From a virus, in IMG/VR virus record IMGVR_UViG_3300005466_000060, positions 1 to 27,333 of that record: DNA of 27,333 nt. One strand, written 5' to 3'. The position numbers were made by a program, and so were the translations under genes. The notes under the pieces were generated by a model. That model ran no database searches. It was not told the origin of the DNA and saw nothing but the letters and a program-made list of their open reading frames with translations. Shown in pieces: positions 3,751 to 21,564 of the stretch (positions within the stretch are counted from its first letter, which is position 1; the number at the start of each line of letters is the position of its first letter).

Positions 3751-3787
3751 CAAGAGCCCCGAATCCATCTGACTCGGGGCCTTTTTT
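3751..3787. terminator. Bidirectional intrinsic terminator between convergent genes
   Basis: The arms GCCCCGA (3756-3762) and TCGGGGC (3774-3780) form a 7-bp GC-rich stem with an 11-nt loop. A T6 run follows on the plus strand and an A-run precedes it (TTGTTTTT on the minus strand), so it can end transcription from both sides. It separates the rightward lysis block from the leftward KilA-N operon. Confidence 0.85.
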
Positions 3788-4454
3788 ATTTTACAGTATC
3801 AGAAAATGCCAAATCCAGCGCCTCTACCGGATATGTCTTTACCGTGCCGAACCGAGGATCGCTTACCTTACCCATGAGGTATCCATTTGCATTGCAAATA
3901 GAACTCGCCTTCTTACCAAGCCTGGCGGCTCCAGGCGCATCTATCTTGATGCCCCTAAGTGACGAGTACCCGGCGATCGTGAAATAATCCGTGGGGCTTG
4001 TAATGGCCTTGGATTCAATCTGCTTTACCTTCTCCTCAACAGCATTTAAACGCTGCTCCTGGGCAACAAGCAGCTGCACGTTTTGGAGCAGGGCCTCGGC
4101 GGCGGACAAAGGCTTTGCAATCTCTGTCTTGCCAGTGCGCATAAGCTCCGCAATTTTCCGGTTGCACCATAGAGCAAACTTTGGGTTTAGCCTGCGGGCG
4201 AACTCTACCACAAGCTCCTGATGAATCCAAGAACCCCCTTTTTCGCCGTTTTTAACGCTTCGAATATCTTCCAAGCGTAGATTTGAGTCTACACACAAGG
4301 CAGTTTCAAACTCCTGCCATGTGATTGTCTTGAAAATGTCCCCAGGCCTTTTATTAAAAGCGTCTGCCATAAGAGTTGCGTTCGCCATCAGTACGCCGTT
4401 GATTTCATCAAACTGGATCTGATAGCCTTCATAATTAAAAACTTGTATTGACAT
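3786..4454 (-). CDS. KilA-N domain protein, putative antirepressor/regulator (222 aa)
   Basis: Residues 1-110 match the KilA-N DNA-binding domain: an N-terminal strand pair, ANATLMADAFNKRPGDIFKT, a variable part, then GSWIHQELVVEFARRLNPKFALWCNRKI. Residues 118-150 are a likely coiled coil (LLQNVQLLVAQEQRLNAVEEKVKQ). Residues 155-215 form a second domain (DYFTIAGYSSLRGIKI, ARLGKKASSICNANGY, TYPVEALDLAF) seen at the C-terminus of many phage KilA-N and antirepressor proteins. It is the last gene of the long leftward operon, but lies beyond two hairpins and a 283-bp gap, so it may be separately controlled. Confidence 0.85.
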   Translation of the reverse strand: MSIQVFNYEGYQIQFDEINGVLMANATLMADAFNKRPGDIFKTITWQEFETALCVDSNLRLEDIRSVKNGEKGGSWIHQELVVEFARRLNPKFALWCNRKIAELMRTGKTEIAKPLSAAEALLQNVQLLVAQEQRLNAVEEKVKQIESKAITSPTDYFTIAGYSSLRGIKIDAPGAARLGKKASSICNANGYLMGKVSDPRFGTVKTYPVEALDLAFSDTVK

Positions 4455-4473
4455 AAGTTGTCATTAAAATAAA

Positions 4474-4525
4474 GAAGCCCGCATCAAATGCACGACCATT
4501 ACTTCGTGCACCCAATACGGGCTTC
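4474..4525 (-). terminator. Two-tier hairpin upstream of the KilA-N gene (attenuator-like)
   Basis: Outer arms GAAGCCCG (4474-4481) and CGGGCTTC (4518-4525) enclose inner arms TGCACG (4489-4494) and CGTGCA (4505-4510). Read leftward the hairpin is followed by TTTATTTT and then, about 20 nt further, by the KilA-N start codon. It could stop or attenuate transcription entering that gene. On the plus strand the T-run is displaced by five bases, so the leftward direction is favoured. Confidence 0.5.
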
Positions 4526-4576
4526 AAGTTCTTTTTAGATCCTGTTGTAATGGACAGATCGTGGTATAAAGATATG

Positions 4577-4613
4577 AAAAGCCCTCGATCCGGATAAGAA
4601 AGAGGGCTTTTTT
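4577..4613. terminator. Intrinsic terminator hairpin, possibly bidirectional
   Basis: GCCCTC (4581-4586) pairs with GAGGGC (4602-4607). It is followed by T6 on the plus strand and by TTTTC on the minus strand. Leftward it would end the candidate small RNA made from the promoter at 4681-4711. Confidence 0.7.
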
Positions 4614-4675
4614 AATGTCTAGAATGGCCGGGCTTGATCCCGGCATGTTCCTTCGTAGGCCTGGAACCGCCCGCG
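4577..4675 (-). ncRNA. Candidate ~100-nt small RNA
   Basis: This ORF-less stretch lies between a consensus leftward promoter and a terminator hairpin. The predicted RNA contains a stem with arms GTTCC (4647-4651) and GGAAC (4663-4667), a 6-bp GC stem with arms GCCGGG (4627-4632) and CCCGGC (4639-4644), then the terminator. It is inferred from promoter, hairpins and terminator only. I do not recognise a known RNA family, and the GC stem is not a proper tRNA T-arm because its loop does not fit. Confidence 0.45.
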
Positions 4676-4680
4676 CACGG

Positions 4681-4711
4681 CAAATTTAGCTAAAAAATCA
4701 TGCCTGCCAAT
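4681..4711 (-). promoter_or_regulatory. Bacteroidota-type promoter without a downstream ORF
   Basis: Read on the minus strand: TTG (plus 4708-4710), 19-nt spacer, then TAAATTTG (plus 4681-4688), an exact match to the -7 consensus TAnnTTTG. Transcription would start near 4675. The next leftward ORF is more than 200 nt away and behind two hairpins. Confidence 0.5.
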
Positions 4712-4737
4712 GTTTCCTCGAAAGGGAACGCGCCTTC

Positions 4738-5016
4738 CTAAATCGTCCGCCTATTCCACTTAGCGATCACCTCCATTCTGGCCGCCTCGGCAGTATCTAT
4801 CTTCCCCAGGCAAGTGAATACCTCGGCGCCACATTTGAATGTGTCATTACAAAATACTTTATAGACCACGTTTTGTGTATTCTCATTCTCCCACCCTGCG
4901 GACATGATGTTTTTGTTGCCGCAGAATGGACAAGGCAATAGCTCATTTGAGTGATACCCGGCATTGATTATATCCTTGTCGGTCGCAATAAAGTTTTCTT
5001 CTTTTATCTGTTTCAT
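4738..5016 (-). CDS. Lar-like restriction alleviation / zinc-ribbon protein (92 aa)
   Basis: The protein carries the Lar-family pattern: LLPCPFCGNKNIMSAG near residues 26-41, a second pair of cysteines around 54-62 (VFCNDTFKCGAEV), and a C-terminal helix AARMEVIAKWNRR. The four cysteines should bind zinc. Lar of the Rac prophage modulates type I restriction in E. coli, but many phage relatives carry this fold without a tested function. The start overlaps the upstream gene end by 4 nt (ATGA), so it belongs to the leftward operon. Confidence 0.7.
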   Translation of the reverse strand: MKQIKEENFIATDKDIINAGYHSNELLPCPFCGNKNIMSAGWENENTQNVVYKVFCNDTFKCGAEVFTCLGKIDTAEAARMEVIAKWNRRTI

Positions 5017-9216: not shown

Positions 9217-9440
9217 TCCAGTTCAAATAAAAGGTTGTTCAGTTCCAGTCCGATGATCGCCCACATGGCTTTCTTATCAGGGTCTTTCTCGCTTCGTATG
9301 CGGGCTTTGATCCCATTGCAAACCTGGCGCACGGTGTTGCTCATCTTGTTTCGGCTATTCCGCTTAGGGAATATGTTGTACGAGTCGCCAGGATTACCGG
9401 ATTTGAACTTCGTCTTAACTTTGGCGTAGTCATGCTTCAT
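9213..9440 (-). CDS. Small basic hypothetical protein, 75 aa
   Basis: The stop overlaps the methyltransferase start (ATGA) and the start overlaps the upstream gene by 11 nt. The first half is Lys/Arg/Asn-rich and the second half is helical (KKAMWAIIGLELNNLLFELE). No family recognised. Confidence 0.6.
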   Translation of the reverse strand: MKHDYAKVKTKFKSGNPGDSYNIFPKRNSRNKMSNTVRQVCNGIKARIRSEKDPDKKAMWAIIGLELNNLLFELE

Positions 9441-10221
9441 CTTGTGTTTCGTTAAGTAGTTTCTTCGCCTTTCTGTGATACCCTTCTTTCTGGAAATCTG
9501 CTATCCATTGAAGGCGACGTTGTTTACGCTCTGGGCCATAAGGCTGCAATCTGAAGTGACCTCTTACATTGAAGGCGCCAGACGATACAAGATTCGTGTA
9601 CCATGTAGAGTCAATTACGGTAATGTCGGCGCTTGTCTTGTTGTTGTAGATTGCGTTTACCCTTCTATCATCCCATATCTGCGTATTAGGCTTCATGACC
9701 TTGGTTTCCACCTCGGCAAAATTGATGAACAGTTCAGCCGACAGTATTGTATACAATACGACATTCAATATTTCATCGTGAGTTTGAATGTTTAATATTG
9801 GTGGTATATCAGGGTAAGACCTGAAATGGAGGAGTTCGCTATCCAGTCGGTCAACGAAAACAGAAAACAGCATGCCAAATGCCGGTTTGTTAGGCACAAT
9901 AAAATGAGTCTGTCCATGAATGTTAATTCGATCACCCTCCACCAATAGAACGTAATGCAACACATGCGGATTTCCAGCCTTAGACATGTATATTAGTGAA
10001 CGACACGAATCAGTCAATTCCTTACGATGCGGCACAAGCTTTTTGTAATAGGTGAACATTGGGTCAATAATCGGCTTTGCTAGATAAGTCCGAACTGTAT
10101 CAGCGATAACGATCATTGATGCCATTTTATCCATTGTGACTTGATCAATAATTCCTACATAATTCTTAAGAACTATAGCATGATCAAAAAGTGCTGGGAA
10201 TCGTTCTTTATCAATTCTCAT
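9430..10221 (-). CDS. Conserved-looking hypothetical phage protein, 263 aa
   Basis: A soluble protein with a long mixed alpha/beta N-terminal part and a distinctive C-terminal block of about 60 residues: DSTWYTNLVSSGAFNVRGHF, then RLQPYGPERKQRRLQWI and a basic tail (GYHRKAKKLL). The GHFRLQPYG...R..RRL..I pattern looks like a short conserved module, possibly nucleic-acid binding because of its basic charge, but I cannot name a family. It lies between replication-like genes and the methyltransferase. Confidence 0.6.
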   Translation of the reverse strand: MRIDKERFPALFDHAIVLKNYVGIIDQVTMDKMASMIVIADTVRTYLAKPIIDPMFTYYKKLVPHRKELTDSCRSLIYMSKAGNPHVLHYVLLVEGDRINIHGQTHFIVPNKPAFGMLFSVFVDRLDSELLHFRSYPDIPPILNIQTHDEILNVVLYTILSAELFINFAEVETKVMKPNTQIWDDRRVNAIYNNKTSADITVIDSTWYTNLVSSGAFNVRGHFRLQPYGPERKQRRLQWIADFQKEGYHRKAKKLLNETQDEA

Positions 10222-11013: not shown

Positions 11014-11296
11014 ATGCTACATTGAATTTGCTGTTGACTATTGAAATTTCCAGGTGATCCAAGATCCATTGATCGTTGAGTGCGGCAAGGAATCCTTTCA
11101 GGCTATTGATAACCATCTCGGGACCTGTGTCCATCCCCTTTTGTTTAAGCTTTGTTTCGATCTTCATCAACAACTGCTTAAGATGGAATCCGTCCTTTTT
11201 GTCGAACACGTATTCCTCTCCTGTCTTATTCCGGTAGAATGAATACCATACATCAACCGCCGATTTATACAGCGGGTTTGGTTCCTTTTTTGCCAT
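10895..11296 (-). CDS. Probable phage replication protein (loader/organiser-like), 133 aa
   Basis: Residues 8-95 resemble the short helical proteins found at the head of replication modules in Bacteroidota phages: DVWYSFYRNKTGEEYVF, a loop, GFHLKQLLMKIETKL, then SLKGFLAALNDQWILD and a SIVNSKFNVAYAR motif. The C-terminal 40 residues are polar and possibly disordered (SPGAGQQNGSSKATG); they are the part that overlaps the next gene in another frame. A role in helicase loading or origin binding is inference. It overlaps the upstream zinc-knuckle/HTH gene by 32 nt. Confidence 0.5.
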   Translation of the reverse strand: MAKKEPNPLYKSAVDVWYSFYRNKTGEEYVFDKKDGFHLKQLLMKIETKLKQKGMDTGPEMVINSLKGFLAALNDQWILDHLEISIVNSKFNVAYARAVKTSPFTASSRIDDLINKRHSPGAGQQNGSSKATG

Positions 11297-11498
11297 GATC
11301 TTTGAGTATAAGGTAAACTGAACGTACAGACTTATAGCCTAATGCTCTTTGAATCTGTCGTAGGCTGTGACCTTTTTCGTGAAGTTTGTGAACAATCTCC
11401 CGTTTAACTTCGACTCTATCCACATCAAGTATTCGAGGATCTTCGATCTTTCCTGTCCCTCCGCATATCGGGCAATCTGTATTCCTTTTTTTTGTCAT
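11265..11498 (-). CDS. Small regulator with CxxC knuckle and helix-turn-helix (77 aa)
   Basis: Residues 9-16 are CPICGGTG, a half zinc knuckle of the DnaJ/RRNPP type, followed by a basic helix and then a helix-turn-helix-like segment (HEKGHSLRQIQRALGYKSVRSVYLIL, about 41-65). This suggests sequence-specific DNA binding. It is the first gene of the 7.7-kb leftward operon and its ATG lies 4 nt after a perfect -7 promoter element. An autoregulatory or early-gene control role is plausible. Confidence 0.65.
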   Translation of the reverse strand: MTKKRNTDCPICGGTGKIEDPRILDVDRVEVKREIVHKLHEKGHSLRQIQRALGYKSVRSVYLILKDHGKKGTKPAV

Positions 11499-11502
11499 GC
11501 TT

Positions 11503-11535
11503 CAAAGGTAATGTATTATACATACAATATACAAA
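11503..11535 (-). promoter_or_regulatory. Leftward early promoter with perfect Bacteroidota consensus
   Basis: On the minus strand TTTG (plus 11532-11535), 21-nt spacer, TACCTTTG (plus 11503-11510). Both elements match the consensus exactly. The expected start site falls at or beside the ATG at 11498, implying a leaderless or nearly leaderless transcript for the first gene of the operon. Confidence 0.7.
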
Positions 11536-11545
11536 CTGTATAATA
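11514..11545. promoter_or_regulatory. Inverted repeat, candidate operator
   Basis: TATTATACA (11514-11522) and TGTATAATA (11537-11545) are perfect 9-bp inverted copies 14 nt apart. They flank or cover the -33 element and most of the spacer of the early promoter, the right place for a repressor. The HTH product of the adjacent gene is one candidate ligand. Confidence 0.5.
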
Positions 11546-11591
11546 TATTTCTTGCCATCGTTTTTGCAGACCTTAGATTCCGATTTGAGGC

Positions 11592-11648
11592 GGTCAGTGA
11601 AAATAGGTTAGCCCCTCCCCCTCATAGAGACTAACCTATTCACTGACC
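11592..11648. repeat. Long imperfect inverted repeat
   Basis: Arms 11592-11611 and 11631-11648 match over 18 bp, with two extra A residues in the left arm (GGTCAGTGAAAATAGGTTAG versus CTAACCTATTCACTGACC), around a 19-nt loop of C-rich sequence. No T-run follows on either strand, so it is not a standard terminator. It may be the 3' domain of the neighbouring structured RNA or a DNA site such as an origin. Confidence 0.6.
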
Positions 11649-11861
11649 ATAATTTTGCGTCTCCTTGAGTTCTTCATCTCGGCTTGGCTGTCGAGCAGGA
11701 ATACAGGTTACCCACCATGCTCAACATTTAACAGTGATTGCGCGGTATAGTCGGCGTCCTGGCGGGGCTACATACTCACCAGGGGACTTACATACCTATT
11801 GCCTTGGATCGACAATGCGGGCACCGTAGTGCGGCCCTTTACGCGAAAGACCTATAAAAGC

Positions 11862-11915
11862 AGAAAGCCTCAGCGCAATTCGGGCTCTACTCCGAGTGAT
11901 GCGCTAAGGCTTTCT
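11862..11915 (-). terminator. Strong two-part hairpin after the leftward operon
   Basis: AGAAAGCCT (11862-11870) pairs with AGGCTTTCT (11907-11915), AGCGCA (11872-11877) with TGCGCT (11900-11905), and an inner CGG/CCG closes the loop. Leftward it is followed by GCTTTTAT, a weak T-run. It could end transcription of the operon ending at 12030, or be the 5' domain of the candidate RNA. Confidence 0.45.
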
Positions 11916-11933
11916 AAAATCTTTGATCTGTCA

Positions 11934-11965
11934 CAAAGGTAGAGCTTTCTATGCGACGGTCCAAA
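11934..11965 (-). promoter_or_regulatory. Leftward promoter into ORF-less region (proximal of tandem pair)
   Basis: Minus-strand TTTG (plus 11962-11965), 20-nt spacer, TACCTTTG (plus 11934-11941). Both elements are exact consensus. Start site expected near 11928, 13 nt before the first big hairpin. Confidence 0.65.
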
Positions 11966-11992
11966 TATACAGATTCTGTCGATTCTGACAAA
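11962..11992 (-). promoter_or_regulatory. Leftward promoter into ORF-less region (distal of tandem pair)
   Basis: Minus-strand TTTG (plus 11989-11992), 19-nt spacer, TATATTTG (plus 11962-11969). Its -7 element contains the -33 element of the proximal promoter, so the two overlap exactly. Confidence 0.6.
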
Positions 11993-12029
11993 CACTTCCG
12001 CAAATTGACTGCGAGATTGTCATTTTGCG

Positions 12030-12398
12030 TCATTTCACCATCTTCACCACAATAGGCCATCCTGTTGCTGAGATCTGATATTTATAACCGCAGATGCATG
12101 TTGTCTTTGCGCCTTCGATATCTTCCCGATCTGGACCGAATAGCGTAATATGCCCGCATACGCAGTTTATACCGAGCGCCAAGTTATTTTTATCCGAGAA
12201 CGTACATAATTCCTCGCCTTCCGATTGAAGCGTCCTGACACGATCTAAAAGGTAGATCTGCTCTTTGTTCCCGAACTCCAGGGGTACGACCTGTCCGTCC
12301 GCATTGTAAAACTTTCCGTTTTTCAGAATCATAGCAATGAAAGTAAGGTTATGATTATTGTCAAGATAGCGGCGACGCAAATCGCGCAACCCGTTCAT
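12030..12398 (-). CDS. Zinc-ribbon-like hypothetical protein, 122 aa
   Basis: Two CxC pairs, CVCGHITLFG and CICGYKYQI, about 18 residues apart near the C-terminus suggest a small zinc ribbon. The start at 12398 overlaps the upstream stop (ATGA), but an ATG at 12332 (MILKNGKFYNADGQVV) is also attractive. It is the last gene of the leftward recombination operon. No family recognised. Confidence 0.6.
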   Translation of the reverse strand: MNGLRDLRRRYLDNNHNLTFIAMILKNGKFYNADGQVVPLEFGNKEQIYLLDRVRTLQSEGEELCTFSDKNNLALGINCVCGHITLFGPDREDIEGAKTTCICGYKYQISATGWPIVVKMVK

Positions 12399-14235: not shown

Positions 14236-15113
14236 TACTTTTTGGCTTTGAGTTCATCCATCTTTACTGTGTATAGGTCAATCTGCGAGTCCTTAACGAA
14301 AGGCTCCAGCGCCTTAAGTTCATCCATAGTCTTAGCATCTTGGATCATTAGTATCACGCGCTCAGACTCGTGGTCGATCTGGTCGGGCTCGTTATCGACA
14401 TAAGTAATATCGGTGGCGTCTTCGTTGTTGACAACCGATTGATCGATGGTAACCGCGCGCTGCATCTCGACTGAAAGAGGACCCCACTTCGAAAGATTTG
14501 CCTTGATTACCGTCTTGATGGCCATCGCGTCAAAGTCGTCTTTCCATAACCCAAATCCTTTCTTATAGGTCTGGCTGTATTTAAGCCCGTGGGCCTTGAG
14601 TTGATCCACCGTAGAATAAAGTGTCTTTTGAAAGCCATTCAGGAGTTCGAAATACGACGCATATCCAATGATCTTCTCAGACGTTTTCTTAGTGAAATCG
14701 AAAGTGAAGCCGGTGAGCGGATTTTCTTCCACGAGCTGGCCTTCATAGATCGGCGTGGCCGATAGTGTGCGGTACATGCCAGACCGCTGCGCAAGCTGAA
14801 TGAACCCCTTATAGCCCATCTGAAATTGGGCCACCTGCTTATATGTTCCGTCCTTCTGACGTTGATTGTAGGGCACAATGTAGGCAAACCCAAGGTTGTT
14901 ATTCAGCGGCAGGTCCAGCGTCGCGGCTACTGCGGCAGAATGATAGATGCTGTGTGGATCGGCGTTGGCCAACAGCGCGTTCGACGCGACGATCTGAAGC
15001 ACCGACGTGATGAATTGCGGTGCCCTCTTGCCCAGCATTTCCTGGAATTTGTTCCGGACCTCATCGCGAGCGAAAAGGTTCTTTGTTGTAAGTTGTTGTG
15101 TTGGTTCGCTCAT
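14235..15113 (-). CDS. recT: RecT-family single-strand annealing protein (292 aa)
   Basis: Length and sequence match phage RecT: an N-terminal MLGKRAPQFITSVLQIV, then TLDLPLNNNLGFAYIVPYN, FQMGYKGFIQLAQRSGMYRT, and WKDDFDAMAIKTVIKANLSKWG. It binds ssDNA produced by the adjacent exonuclease and anneals complementary strands, serving phage recombination and repair. The C-terminal 50 residues are acidic and helical as in other RecTs. It is the best-conserved gene of the second leftward operon. The 43 nt upstream are AT-rich but no clear promoter is seen. Confidence 0.95.
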   Translation of the reverse strand: MSEPTQQLTTKNLFARDEVRNKFQEMLGKRAPQFITSVLQIVASNALLANADPHSIYHSAAVAATLDLPLNNNLGFAYIVPYNQRQKDGTYKQVAQFQMGYKGFIQLAQRSGMYRTLSATPIYEGQLVEENPLTGFTFDFTKKTSEKIIGYASYFELLNGFQKTLYSTVDQLKAHGLKYSQTYKKGFGLWKDDFDAMAIKTVIKANLSKWGPLSVEMQRAVTIDQSVVNNEDATDITYVDNEPDQIDHESERVILMIQDAKTMDELKALEPFVKDSQIDLYTVKMDELKAKK

Positions 15114-15156
15114 AATATTTTTATACTAATTTAAACAAAATAGCTGACAGGTTGTG

Positions 15157-17296: not shown

Positions 17297-17318
17297 ATTG
17301 TTTACCGTTTGTGTGATA

Positions 17319-17349
17319 CAAAGATATACGAACGTATATCGACATGCAA
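17319..17349 (-). promoter_or_regulatory. Leftward promoter of the recombination operon
   Basis: Minus-strand TTG (plus 17347-17349), 20-nt spacer, TATCTTTG (plus 17319-17326), exact -7 consensus. The operator 17323-17340 overlaps the -7 element by four bases. Confidence 0.7.
17323..17340. promoter_or_regulatory. Palindromic operator, left copy
   Basis: GATATACG-AA-CGTATATC is a perfect 8-bp inverted repeat with a 2-bp centre. It is placed to block the leftward promoter and is nearly the same sequence as the right copy at 17415-17430. Confidence 0.65.
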
Positions 17350-17402
17350 GCTTTCACGATAAAATATTTTCAGATTTATTTTTAACGAAAGTTAGCCGAA
17401 GG

Positions 17403-17435
17403 TTTGGAATTGCAATATATGTTCATATATCTTTG
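17403..17435 (+). promoter_or_regulatory. Rightward promoter of the RHH-like regulator gene
   Basis: TTTG (17403-17406), 21-nt spacer, TATCTTTG (17428-17435), both exact consensus. The ATG at 17441 lies 5 nt after the -7 element, implying a leaderless or near-leaderless mRNA. Confidence 0.7.
17415..17430. promoter_or_regulatory. Palindromic operator, right copy
   Basis: ATATATG-TT-CATATAT is a perfect 7-bp inverted repeat with a 2-bp centre, overlapping the -7 element by three bases. Aligned with the left copy through the -7 box, 19 of 22 positions are identical. Confidence 0.65.
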
Positions 17436-17440
17436 TGCGC

Positions 17441-20303: not shown

Positions 20304-21016
20304 TCACCATATATACCATCGCATATAACGAGGAGATCATGCTACCTTACTTCGTTGCCCACTACCGCGAGCTATTCCCTGGTTGCCGCATCGTCGTGTA
20401 CAACAACATGAGCGACGATAACACGAAGAGCGTCGCGCTGGCACTCGGATGCGAGGTGATCGACTACGACACAGGTGGCAAGCTTTCCGACGCCAAATAC
20501 TTGGATATAAAAAACAATGCTTGGAAGCGCGCTGAAACGGACTGGGTATTAATCGTTGACATGGATGAGCACTGCCTTATTACCGAATCTGATCTTTTGA
20601 GAGAGTCTGCCGCCGGCACGAATATCCTGTGGTTCGAAGGTTGGAACATGGTGGCCATGAGACCTACGTTAGACGTTAAAACGATAGAATACGGCGTCCG
20701 TGCTCCTTCTTACGACAAGTCCTATTGTTTCAATCGGATCGAGATAGCGGAAATAATGTATAATCCAGGATGCCATACGGCGAACCCGATTACTGTCATG
20801 GGTGCATACCCGATAAAGTATAGCGAGAACGCGTATAAAGTCTTGCACTATAAGTACCTTAACGCTGATTATATGGTGAAGCGCCATGCCTTATTTGCCT
20901 CCAGGCTAAGTGACGACAACCGAAAGAAAGGATATGGTGGTCACTACCTTTACCCGGCATCAAAGATCAAAAGAGAATTTCAGGAGGCACAACGTAACGC
21001 GATAAAAGTAATATGA
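20300..21016 (+). CDS. GT-A type glycosyltransferase (family 2-like), 238 aa
   Basis: N-terminus ITIYTIAYNEEIMLPYFVAH and IVVYNNMSDDNTKSVA are the nucleotide-sugar binding elements of family-2-like transferases. VDMDE (86-90) is the DxD motif that binds the metal and sugar nucleotide. It ends with a basic helical tail. It should move a sugar from a nucleotide donor to an unknown acceptor: virion protein, phage DNA base or host surface glycan. ATGA coupling on both sides. Confidence 0.8.
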   Translation: MITIYTIAYNEEIMLPYFVAHYRELFPGCRIVVYNNMSDDNTKSVALALGCEVIDYDTGGKLSDAKYLDIKNNAWKRAETDWVLIVDMDEHCLITESDLLRESAAGTNILWFEGWNMVAMRPTLDVKTIEYGVRAPSYDKSYCFNRIEIAEIMYNPGCHTANPITVMGAYPIKYSENAYKVLHYKYLNADYMVKRHALFASRLSDDNRKKGYGGHYLYPASKIKREFQEAQRNAIKVI

Positions 21017-21564
21017 GCGAACCAACGAATGGTATATGGGGGCAATTTACCGCTGATAAGTATCATGCGCACAGTCAAGAACTGGCGGATTTCCTAATAG
21101 GATATCTCCCCAAAAATCAGCCAGTGATCGACCTGGGATGCGGCCAGGCATTCTATTTATCTGAGCTTGCAAAGAAGGATTTCCAATGTAAAGGCGTTGA
21201 AGGCTTCAGGTTAAAAAACTTCATGCATGAAGATGTGAAGATTCATGATTTAACCGAGCCGCTGGAGCTTCATATGCGCGGATCTGTGCTTTGCTTGGAA
21301 GTGATGGAGCACGTGCCGAAGTGGGCGGAACAGACGCTTTTAGGGACCATCAATATGCACTGCATCAATACCCTTGTTTTAAGTTGGGGATTACCTGGCC
21401 AGGCGGGCATAGGGCACATAAACCTTCAGCCACAAGAATATGCCATTTCTGAAATGGAACGAAGAGGGTTCAAATATCAAAAAGAAACTTCGGAGTCAGC
21501 CAGAGCAATTATCGGTGATAATACTTCATGGTTTAGGAACACTTTAATGTTCTTTACGCGATGA
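21013..21564 (+). CDS. SAM-dependent methyltransferase, class I (183 aa)
   Basis: VIDLGCG (38-44) is motif I for SAM binding; CLEVMEHVPKWAE (about 94-106) is a motif-IV-like segment; a strand TLVLSWG follows. The size and the context among sugar transferases suggest a small-molecule or sugar methylase capping a glycan, not a DNA methylase. No DPPY or PCQ motif is present. ATGA-coupled to the flanking transferase genes. Confidence 0.8.
   Translation: MSEPTNGIWGQFTADKYHAHSQELADFLIGYLPKNQPVIDLGCGQAFYLSELAKKDFQCKGVEGFRLKNFMHEDVKIHDLTEPLELHMRGSVLCLEVMEHVPKWAEQTLLGTINMHCINTLVLSWGLPGQAGIGHINLQPQEYAISEMERRGFKYQKETSESARAIIGDNTSWFRNTLMFFTR

Follow-up and report, generated by a model that had tools for sequence, protein, structure and literature searches.

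The ORF-less stretch and its promoters

The window, that is, the whole 27,333-base virus record, carries a leftward early region (recT, an exonuclease and a C5 methyltransferase gene) and rightward terminase genes. No credible ORF was found between 11499 and 12030, in agreement with an earlier sequence-only reading of this DNA, and the first gene after this stretch (11265–11498, minus strand) encodes a small HTH protein of 77 aa with weak HTH matches. Further along, the conserved protein encoded at 9430–10221 has three viral relatives only and none in genomes. The window contains no tRNA or tmRNA, and no repeats matching a retroelement template. Elsewhere, at 17318–17436, divergent -7 boxes (minus strand at 17319, plus strand at 17435) lie within a 22-nt inverted repeat with arms 75 nt apart, in what looks like an early/late control region. 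On opposite strands, recT and a methyltransferase-like gene have 25-nt start regions (15100–15124 and 21002–21026) that are 92% alike.

Promoters of the Bacteroidota -33/-7 type have TTTG at -33 and TAnnTTTG at -7 (PMC7366714), and those of the window match this type, with start sites predicted from sequence. Promoter P1 (11962–11992, minus strand; TTTG at 11989–11992, -7 box TATATTTG at 11962–11969) and the possible promoter P2 (11934–11965, minus strand; TTTG at 11962–11965, -7 box TACCTTTG at 11934–11941) are both exact matches, and they overlap as previously described, the -33 element of P2 being the end of the -7 box of P1. A third strict match, P3 (11503–11535, minus strand; -7 box TACCTTTG at 11503–11510), which had been overlooked, lies immediately before the HTH ORF and overlaps an operator-like inverted repeat (AATGTATTATACA/TGTATAATATATT, 11510–11549) beside this gene. 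With a strict match defined as TTTG, a spacer of 19–21 nt and TANNTTTG, three matches were observed in 11301–12300 against 0.008 expected from 2000 dinucleotide shuffles, and four in the whole window against 0.42 expected. A scan for the -33/-7 type gave no promoter on the opposite strand in 11300–12300.

The RNA predicted to start at P1 would open with hairpin A (11930–11957, minus strand; stem GUCGCA/UGUGAC), found by descriptor scan, whose loop strand GCUCUAC (11939–11945) is perfectly complementary over 7 bp to the strand GUAGAGC (11884–11890) in the loop of hairpin B (11861–11916, minus strand; 16–17 bp, AGAAAGCCUUAGCGCA/UGCGCUGAGGCUUUCU). A U-rich tract, read from the sequence, follows hairpin B (11849–11860, minus strand; CUUUUAUAGGUC); it is interrupted (UGCUUUUAU) and weaker than in the family of leaders to which this unit, hereafter element 1, is compared below. 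Hairpin B corresponds to the first strong stem of the sequence-only reading, which is real, although its placement 13 nt after the start holds for P2 only, the stem lying about 45 nt after the -7 box of P1. Hairpin A, the loop–loop match and a second copy of the unit at 4474–4558 had escaped notice. The -7 box of P2 sits inside the loop of hairpin A, and a transcript from P2 would be devoid of this hairpin. No P2-like second promoter was noticed among the other leaders inspected by eye, and P2 is possibly incidental.

The ORF-less region as a whole folds better than its shuffles (z -4.4). This excess stability comes from its two ends, the first unit (11855–11957, z -6.4) and the last hairpin (11592–11649), whereas the middle (11655–11860) folds no differently from shuffled sequences (z +0.25, matched by 111 of 200 shuffles). 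The ornate RNA with at least six hairpins that had been envisaged is therefore not confirmed, only the end structures exceeding chance. The last hairpin (minus strand), with the G-rich loop GAGGGGGAGGGG, has no kissing partner, no relative found and no minus-strand U tract, and together with the remaining 260 nt of the stretch it has no place in the leader unit proposed here. Homology searches of INPHARED, PLSDB and the phage loci fetched by RecT gave no DNA relatives of the whole region. An exact 18-mer match in IMG/VR (L002) and a 14-mer match in G005 (L085), both without the hairpin, look like chance.

A second copy and the sister phages

Element 2, found by a descriptor scan of the window, reproduces this architecture on the minus strand. 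Its hairpin A (4541–4558; stem CUGU/ACAG) exposes the strand CCAUUAC (4547–4553), complementary to GUAAUGG (4496–4502) in the 8-nt loop of a 22-bp hairpin B (4474–4525), so that its code differs from that of element 1. This hairpin B is the top-scoring hairpin in the window, and the hairpins B of the two elements are the two highest. The U-rich tract (4462–4473, UUUAUUUUAAUG) ends 7 nt before the start codon of the first gene after the element (3786–4454, minus strand), which encodes an antirepressor-type protein with a KilA-N domain (Pfam KilA-N, E 4e-13). The unit lies 20 nt upstream of this gene and folds with a z of -6.4 against shuffles. Just upstream of it, window 4559–4740 differs from the sister phages introduced below, with an additional terminator-like hairpin and with TATCTTTA as a weaker -7 box where these phages have TATATTTG.

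Two sister phages (G006 and G007) carry element 2 identical letter for letter, relatives of the genes upstream of P1, and the P1 site itself with 82–86% identity. In G006, P1 is followed by a leader with the code GUGCAU/AUGCAC and, about 11 nt on, by a replication-type gene; in G007 it is followed by a tRNA-Met gene, a leader with the code GUGGACG/CGUCCAC and a DUF1376-like gene. The tRNA-Met gene (L248:3589–3665) lies between the conserved P1 and the leader, a position from which tRNA 3'-end processing would put the leader near the RNA 5' end again. From the P1-leader point to 9440, the genes of the window differ from those of the sister phages, and the HTH gene was not found in the regions of G006 and G007 examined. 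The comparison points to an exchange of the replication module in the window, in which the new module would have brought P3 and would begin with the HTH gene. Element 1 would then not stand directly before a gene because the sister-type replication genes were exchanged here, and it is probably an orphan leader; it may have been left as such or act as a free-standing short RNA. A more distant relative (L083) shows the same layout, its element (GUAGCC/GGCUAC) being separated from the next good ORF by about 230 nt. Some tRNA-like impressions in that locus were weak and unsupported.

A leader family with matched and variable loops

The two elements share their anatomy with dozens of Bacteroidota phage loci, mostly upstream of replication or regulator genes. 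A -33/-7 promoter is followed, within a few nucleotides, by the leader start and a 5'-proximal strand, usually in the loop of a hairpin A and sometimes unpaired, then by a terminator-like hairpin B whose apical loop is perfectly complementary to this strand over 6–11 nt, a U-rich tract and an ATG. In the starting sample, made up of phage loci retrieved through RecT, the hairpins that score highest after -33/-7 promoters cluster 45–60 nt past the -7 box, and in several of these regions a smaller hairpin with a complementary apical loop, read by eye, precedes the big one. The genes downstream include DUF1376-type, Lin1244-type, HTH_36 replication-initiator type and helicase-like genes and KilA-N and Rha regulators.

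A scan of 133 further loci (total score of at least 50, T-rich tail and nearby ATG) yielded 33 candidates against none in locally shuffled DNA. A wider descriptor run over 2.29 Mb gave 46 candidates with a -7 box and an ATG 5–30 nt downstream, again against none in shuffled loci. After removal of redundancy, and under cut-offs that differ slightly from those of this count, the list comprises 38 entries, some of them doubtful; entries such as L172, L201, L184, L220:8590 and L222:37692 were left aside as chance-like or from non-Bacteroidota MAGs. Since these scans select for the loop match, a test free of this requirement was added upstream of one gene family, in which the strongest hairpin close to the ATG was taken and the 70 nt upstream were searched for a match to its loop. 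Of 51 own pairs, which are partly dependent as some belong to the same groups, 27 had a match of 7 nt, against 6.6% of swapped pairs. The 12 nt after hairpin B contain 7.8 T on average, in a scan that itself demands at least five, versus 3.1 at the corresponding position before other ORFs of the same loci; tails in the match-free test, where no T was required, are likewise mostly T-rich.

Cultured phages carry the leader as well, unannotated in each case: Bacteroides phage B40-8 before pRha, Flavobacterium phage FCL-2 with the code CAUCCAC/GUGGAUG, and Polaribacter phage P12002L before a replication protein. The promoter region is common to 78 FCL-2-like phages and most alignments stop just past it; in FCV-1 and V186 a different code, GUAGAGAG/CUCUCUAC, replaces CAUCCAC/GUGGAUG after the conserved promoter. 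BF702P1 retains the B40-8 code and BF766P1 differs from it by one base of loop B. Scanning gave no convincing copy in Flavobacterium phage 11b, Nonlabens phage P12024S, Cellulophaga phage phi10:1 (first 30 kb) or Flavobacterium phage 6H.

Sequence, complementarity, covariation and position are all directly seen in these loci. In alignment A5 (17 sequences, 16 distinct) the kissing helix is paired in 99.1% of cells, with five of its seven pairs changed on both sides, and in alignment A6 (13 sequences) it is paired in 100%, with five of nine pairs changed on both sides and up to four pair types. The covariation score was reached by none of 500 shuffles, and the signal is lost once the partner is shifted by one to three columns. 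Such Watson-Crick complementarity between two loops, conserved and covarying, is characteristic of a kissing-loop RNA. In A6 the 5' strand begins immediately at the promoter without lying in an evident hairpin, and the interaction in this group is better described as a pseudoknot than as a kissing complex. Within the leader, variation is greatest in the columns that pair, where the mean pairwise difference is 0.37 and 0.39, versus 0.10 and 0.20 in the stems; the code varies 2–4 times more than the stems, a contrast suggestive of diversifying selection. Two copies with unlike codes occur in one phage both in the window and in L015. Pairing letters that differ between phages yet always match are suggestive of a self-matching RNA switch, not described before, that would act on replication and regulator genes of these phages.

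These data bear on the possibility that no functional RNA exists, the hairpins and loop matches being due to chance, or 11861–11916 and 11592–11649 being DNA features such as an origin or a recombination site. The chance-level folding of the middle of the stretch and the lack of a gene adjoining element 1 would fit it. Against these stand the covariation in two independent alignments, with the same codes legible directly in ungapped sequences, the 46 candidates compared with none in shuffled loci, and the strand specificity of the promoter and the U tract, which make this explanation highly improbable. A lack of covariation and conservation in relatives was among the refuting conditions of the sequence-only reading, and covariation there proved strong. 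This gives good support to a phage leader RNA not described before, as a unit of about 100 nt (11849–11957) instead of the 340 nt first supposed. No Rfam 15 family matches at gathering score the leaders in the window, L083, L018, L025, L079 and 18 further loci, and no description of such a leader was found in the open-access literature, to which the search was restricted. By type the family falls among leader attenuators and loop–loop RNAs; its novelty, as far as could be tested, lies in their combination with a fast-changing, always-matched code in one transcript.

Possible function and comparison with known systems

Across the family, a GC-containing hairpin and a U-rich tract between the promoter and the first gene give the layout of an intrinsic-terminator attenuator, from which element 1 deviates by its weaker tract and by a next ORF that does not adjoin. 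The leading reading, for which belief and doubt are about evenly balanced, is that element 1 is one of two window copies of a new Bacteroidota phage 5'-leader family acting in cis as an attenuator, which a loop code specific to the phage would tune. Transcription and its start sites are predicted here from the DNA, as are termination and read-through. In this scenario hairpin B and the U tract would form an intrinsic terminator, conditioned by the intramolecular kissing helix. A correctly paired 5' end would favour read-through, the direction being a guess, and a leader with its 5' strand absent or already engaged would be terminated, so that, as proposed, the early gene would be made only from intact transcripts of its own. 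The variable code would prevent cross-action among leaders, whether these belong to one phage or to phages that infect together. A partner strand would be superfluous for a plain terminator ahead of genes that are needed, which favours a 5' end that conditions read-through. The antitermination-type element of the sequence-only reading is hypothetical, and the unit includes a terminator-like hairpin.

The distance from hairpin B to the ATG, typically 10–20 nt, is tight (median 15 nt, quartiles 12–19), a placement that would put hairpin B at the edge of the initiating ribosome. A 5'-terminal hairpin, with which the leaders usually open, is a classic mRNA stabiliser. Both features would suit the same RNA family acting on translation or mRNA stability without regulated termination, the 5' kissing structure protecting the message or positioning or blocking the ribosome. 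This appears doubtful, given that the context is U-rich whereas that of other start codons in the same loci is A-rich, and that the faster change of the kissing letters than of the stems is left unaccounted for. A cis-only structural role could likewise explain everything but the fast code change.

Loops that are hypervariable yet matched, the unlike codes of the two copies in the window and in L015, and the frequent position upstream of replication or antirepressor-type genes would also be expected if the terminated leader were a trans-acting small RNA in copy-number or superinfection control, its code changing to escape the RNAs of other phages. IsrK offers a precedent for an sRNA made by a terminator together with a read-through mRNA (PMC4825925). 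Both strands lie in one RNA, in which cis pairing is expected first, and no separate antisense gene was found, so that this explanation is judged unlikely.

Returning to the attenuator reading, the variable yet matched loops raise a question of RNA specificity, namely, whether they serve cis folding only or distinguish self from non-self between phages. A tentative extension, considered more doubtful than likely, is an RNA self-recognition code in which matched, fast-diversifying loops would tie replication and regulatory gene expression to the phage's own transcript, with leader-specific immunity or incompatibility between phages. Regulatory RNAs are little known in phages of the Bacteroidota, a dominant gut and aquatic phylum, in which the family would be widespread and unannotated. 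Phages in culture carry it, among them ones that infect Bacteroides fragilis and Flavobacterium columnare, which makes it testable at once.

Among known systems, IsrK of prophage Gifsy-1 is a short RNA ended by a terminator, with read-through into an antirepressor-type operon (PMC4825925), a position comparable to those of element 2 and the B40-8 copy; IsrK, whose host is enteric, is not known to carry an intramolecular kissing code. The DUF805b RNA (RF02914) resembles the new leaders in being short, structured and placed ahead of a gene of Bacteroidota phages, but it has another sequence and another model. One phage carries both, with a DUF805b RNA at L095:3071–3103 (42.8 bits) and a ParB-like gene 20 nt downstream of it. 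The put RNA of HK022 is an RNA-only antitermination element at early phage promoters, conserved in sequence and not known to have loop–loop pairing or a terminator of its own. Like the new leaders, it places a pair of hairpins at the beginning of an early transcript; in the new leaders the second hairpin is terminator-like and the loops match with a variable code. Antisense RNAs control plasmid replication in ColE1 (RNAI/RNAII) and through rep-gene attenuation. As in the new leaders, control of this kind involves loop–loop recognition upstream of replication genes, with variable loops setting the specificity; however, it employs two separate RNAs from opposite strands, whereas a single transcript contains both loops of the new leaders, for which no counter-transcript was found. 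RNAII of pMV158 belongs to the same type of antisense control of plasmid replication (PMC4485353). The self-recognition reading would thus resemble the plasmid copy-control RNAs, but encoded in a single transcript.
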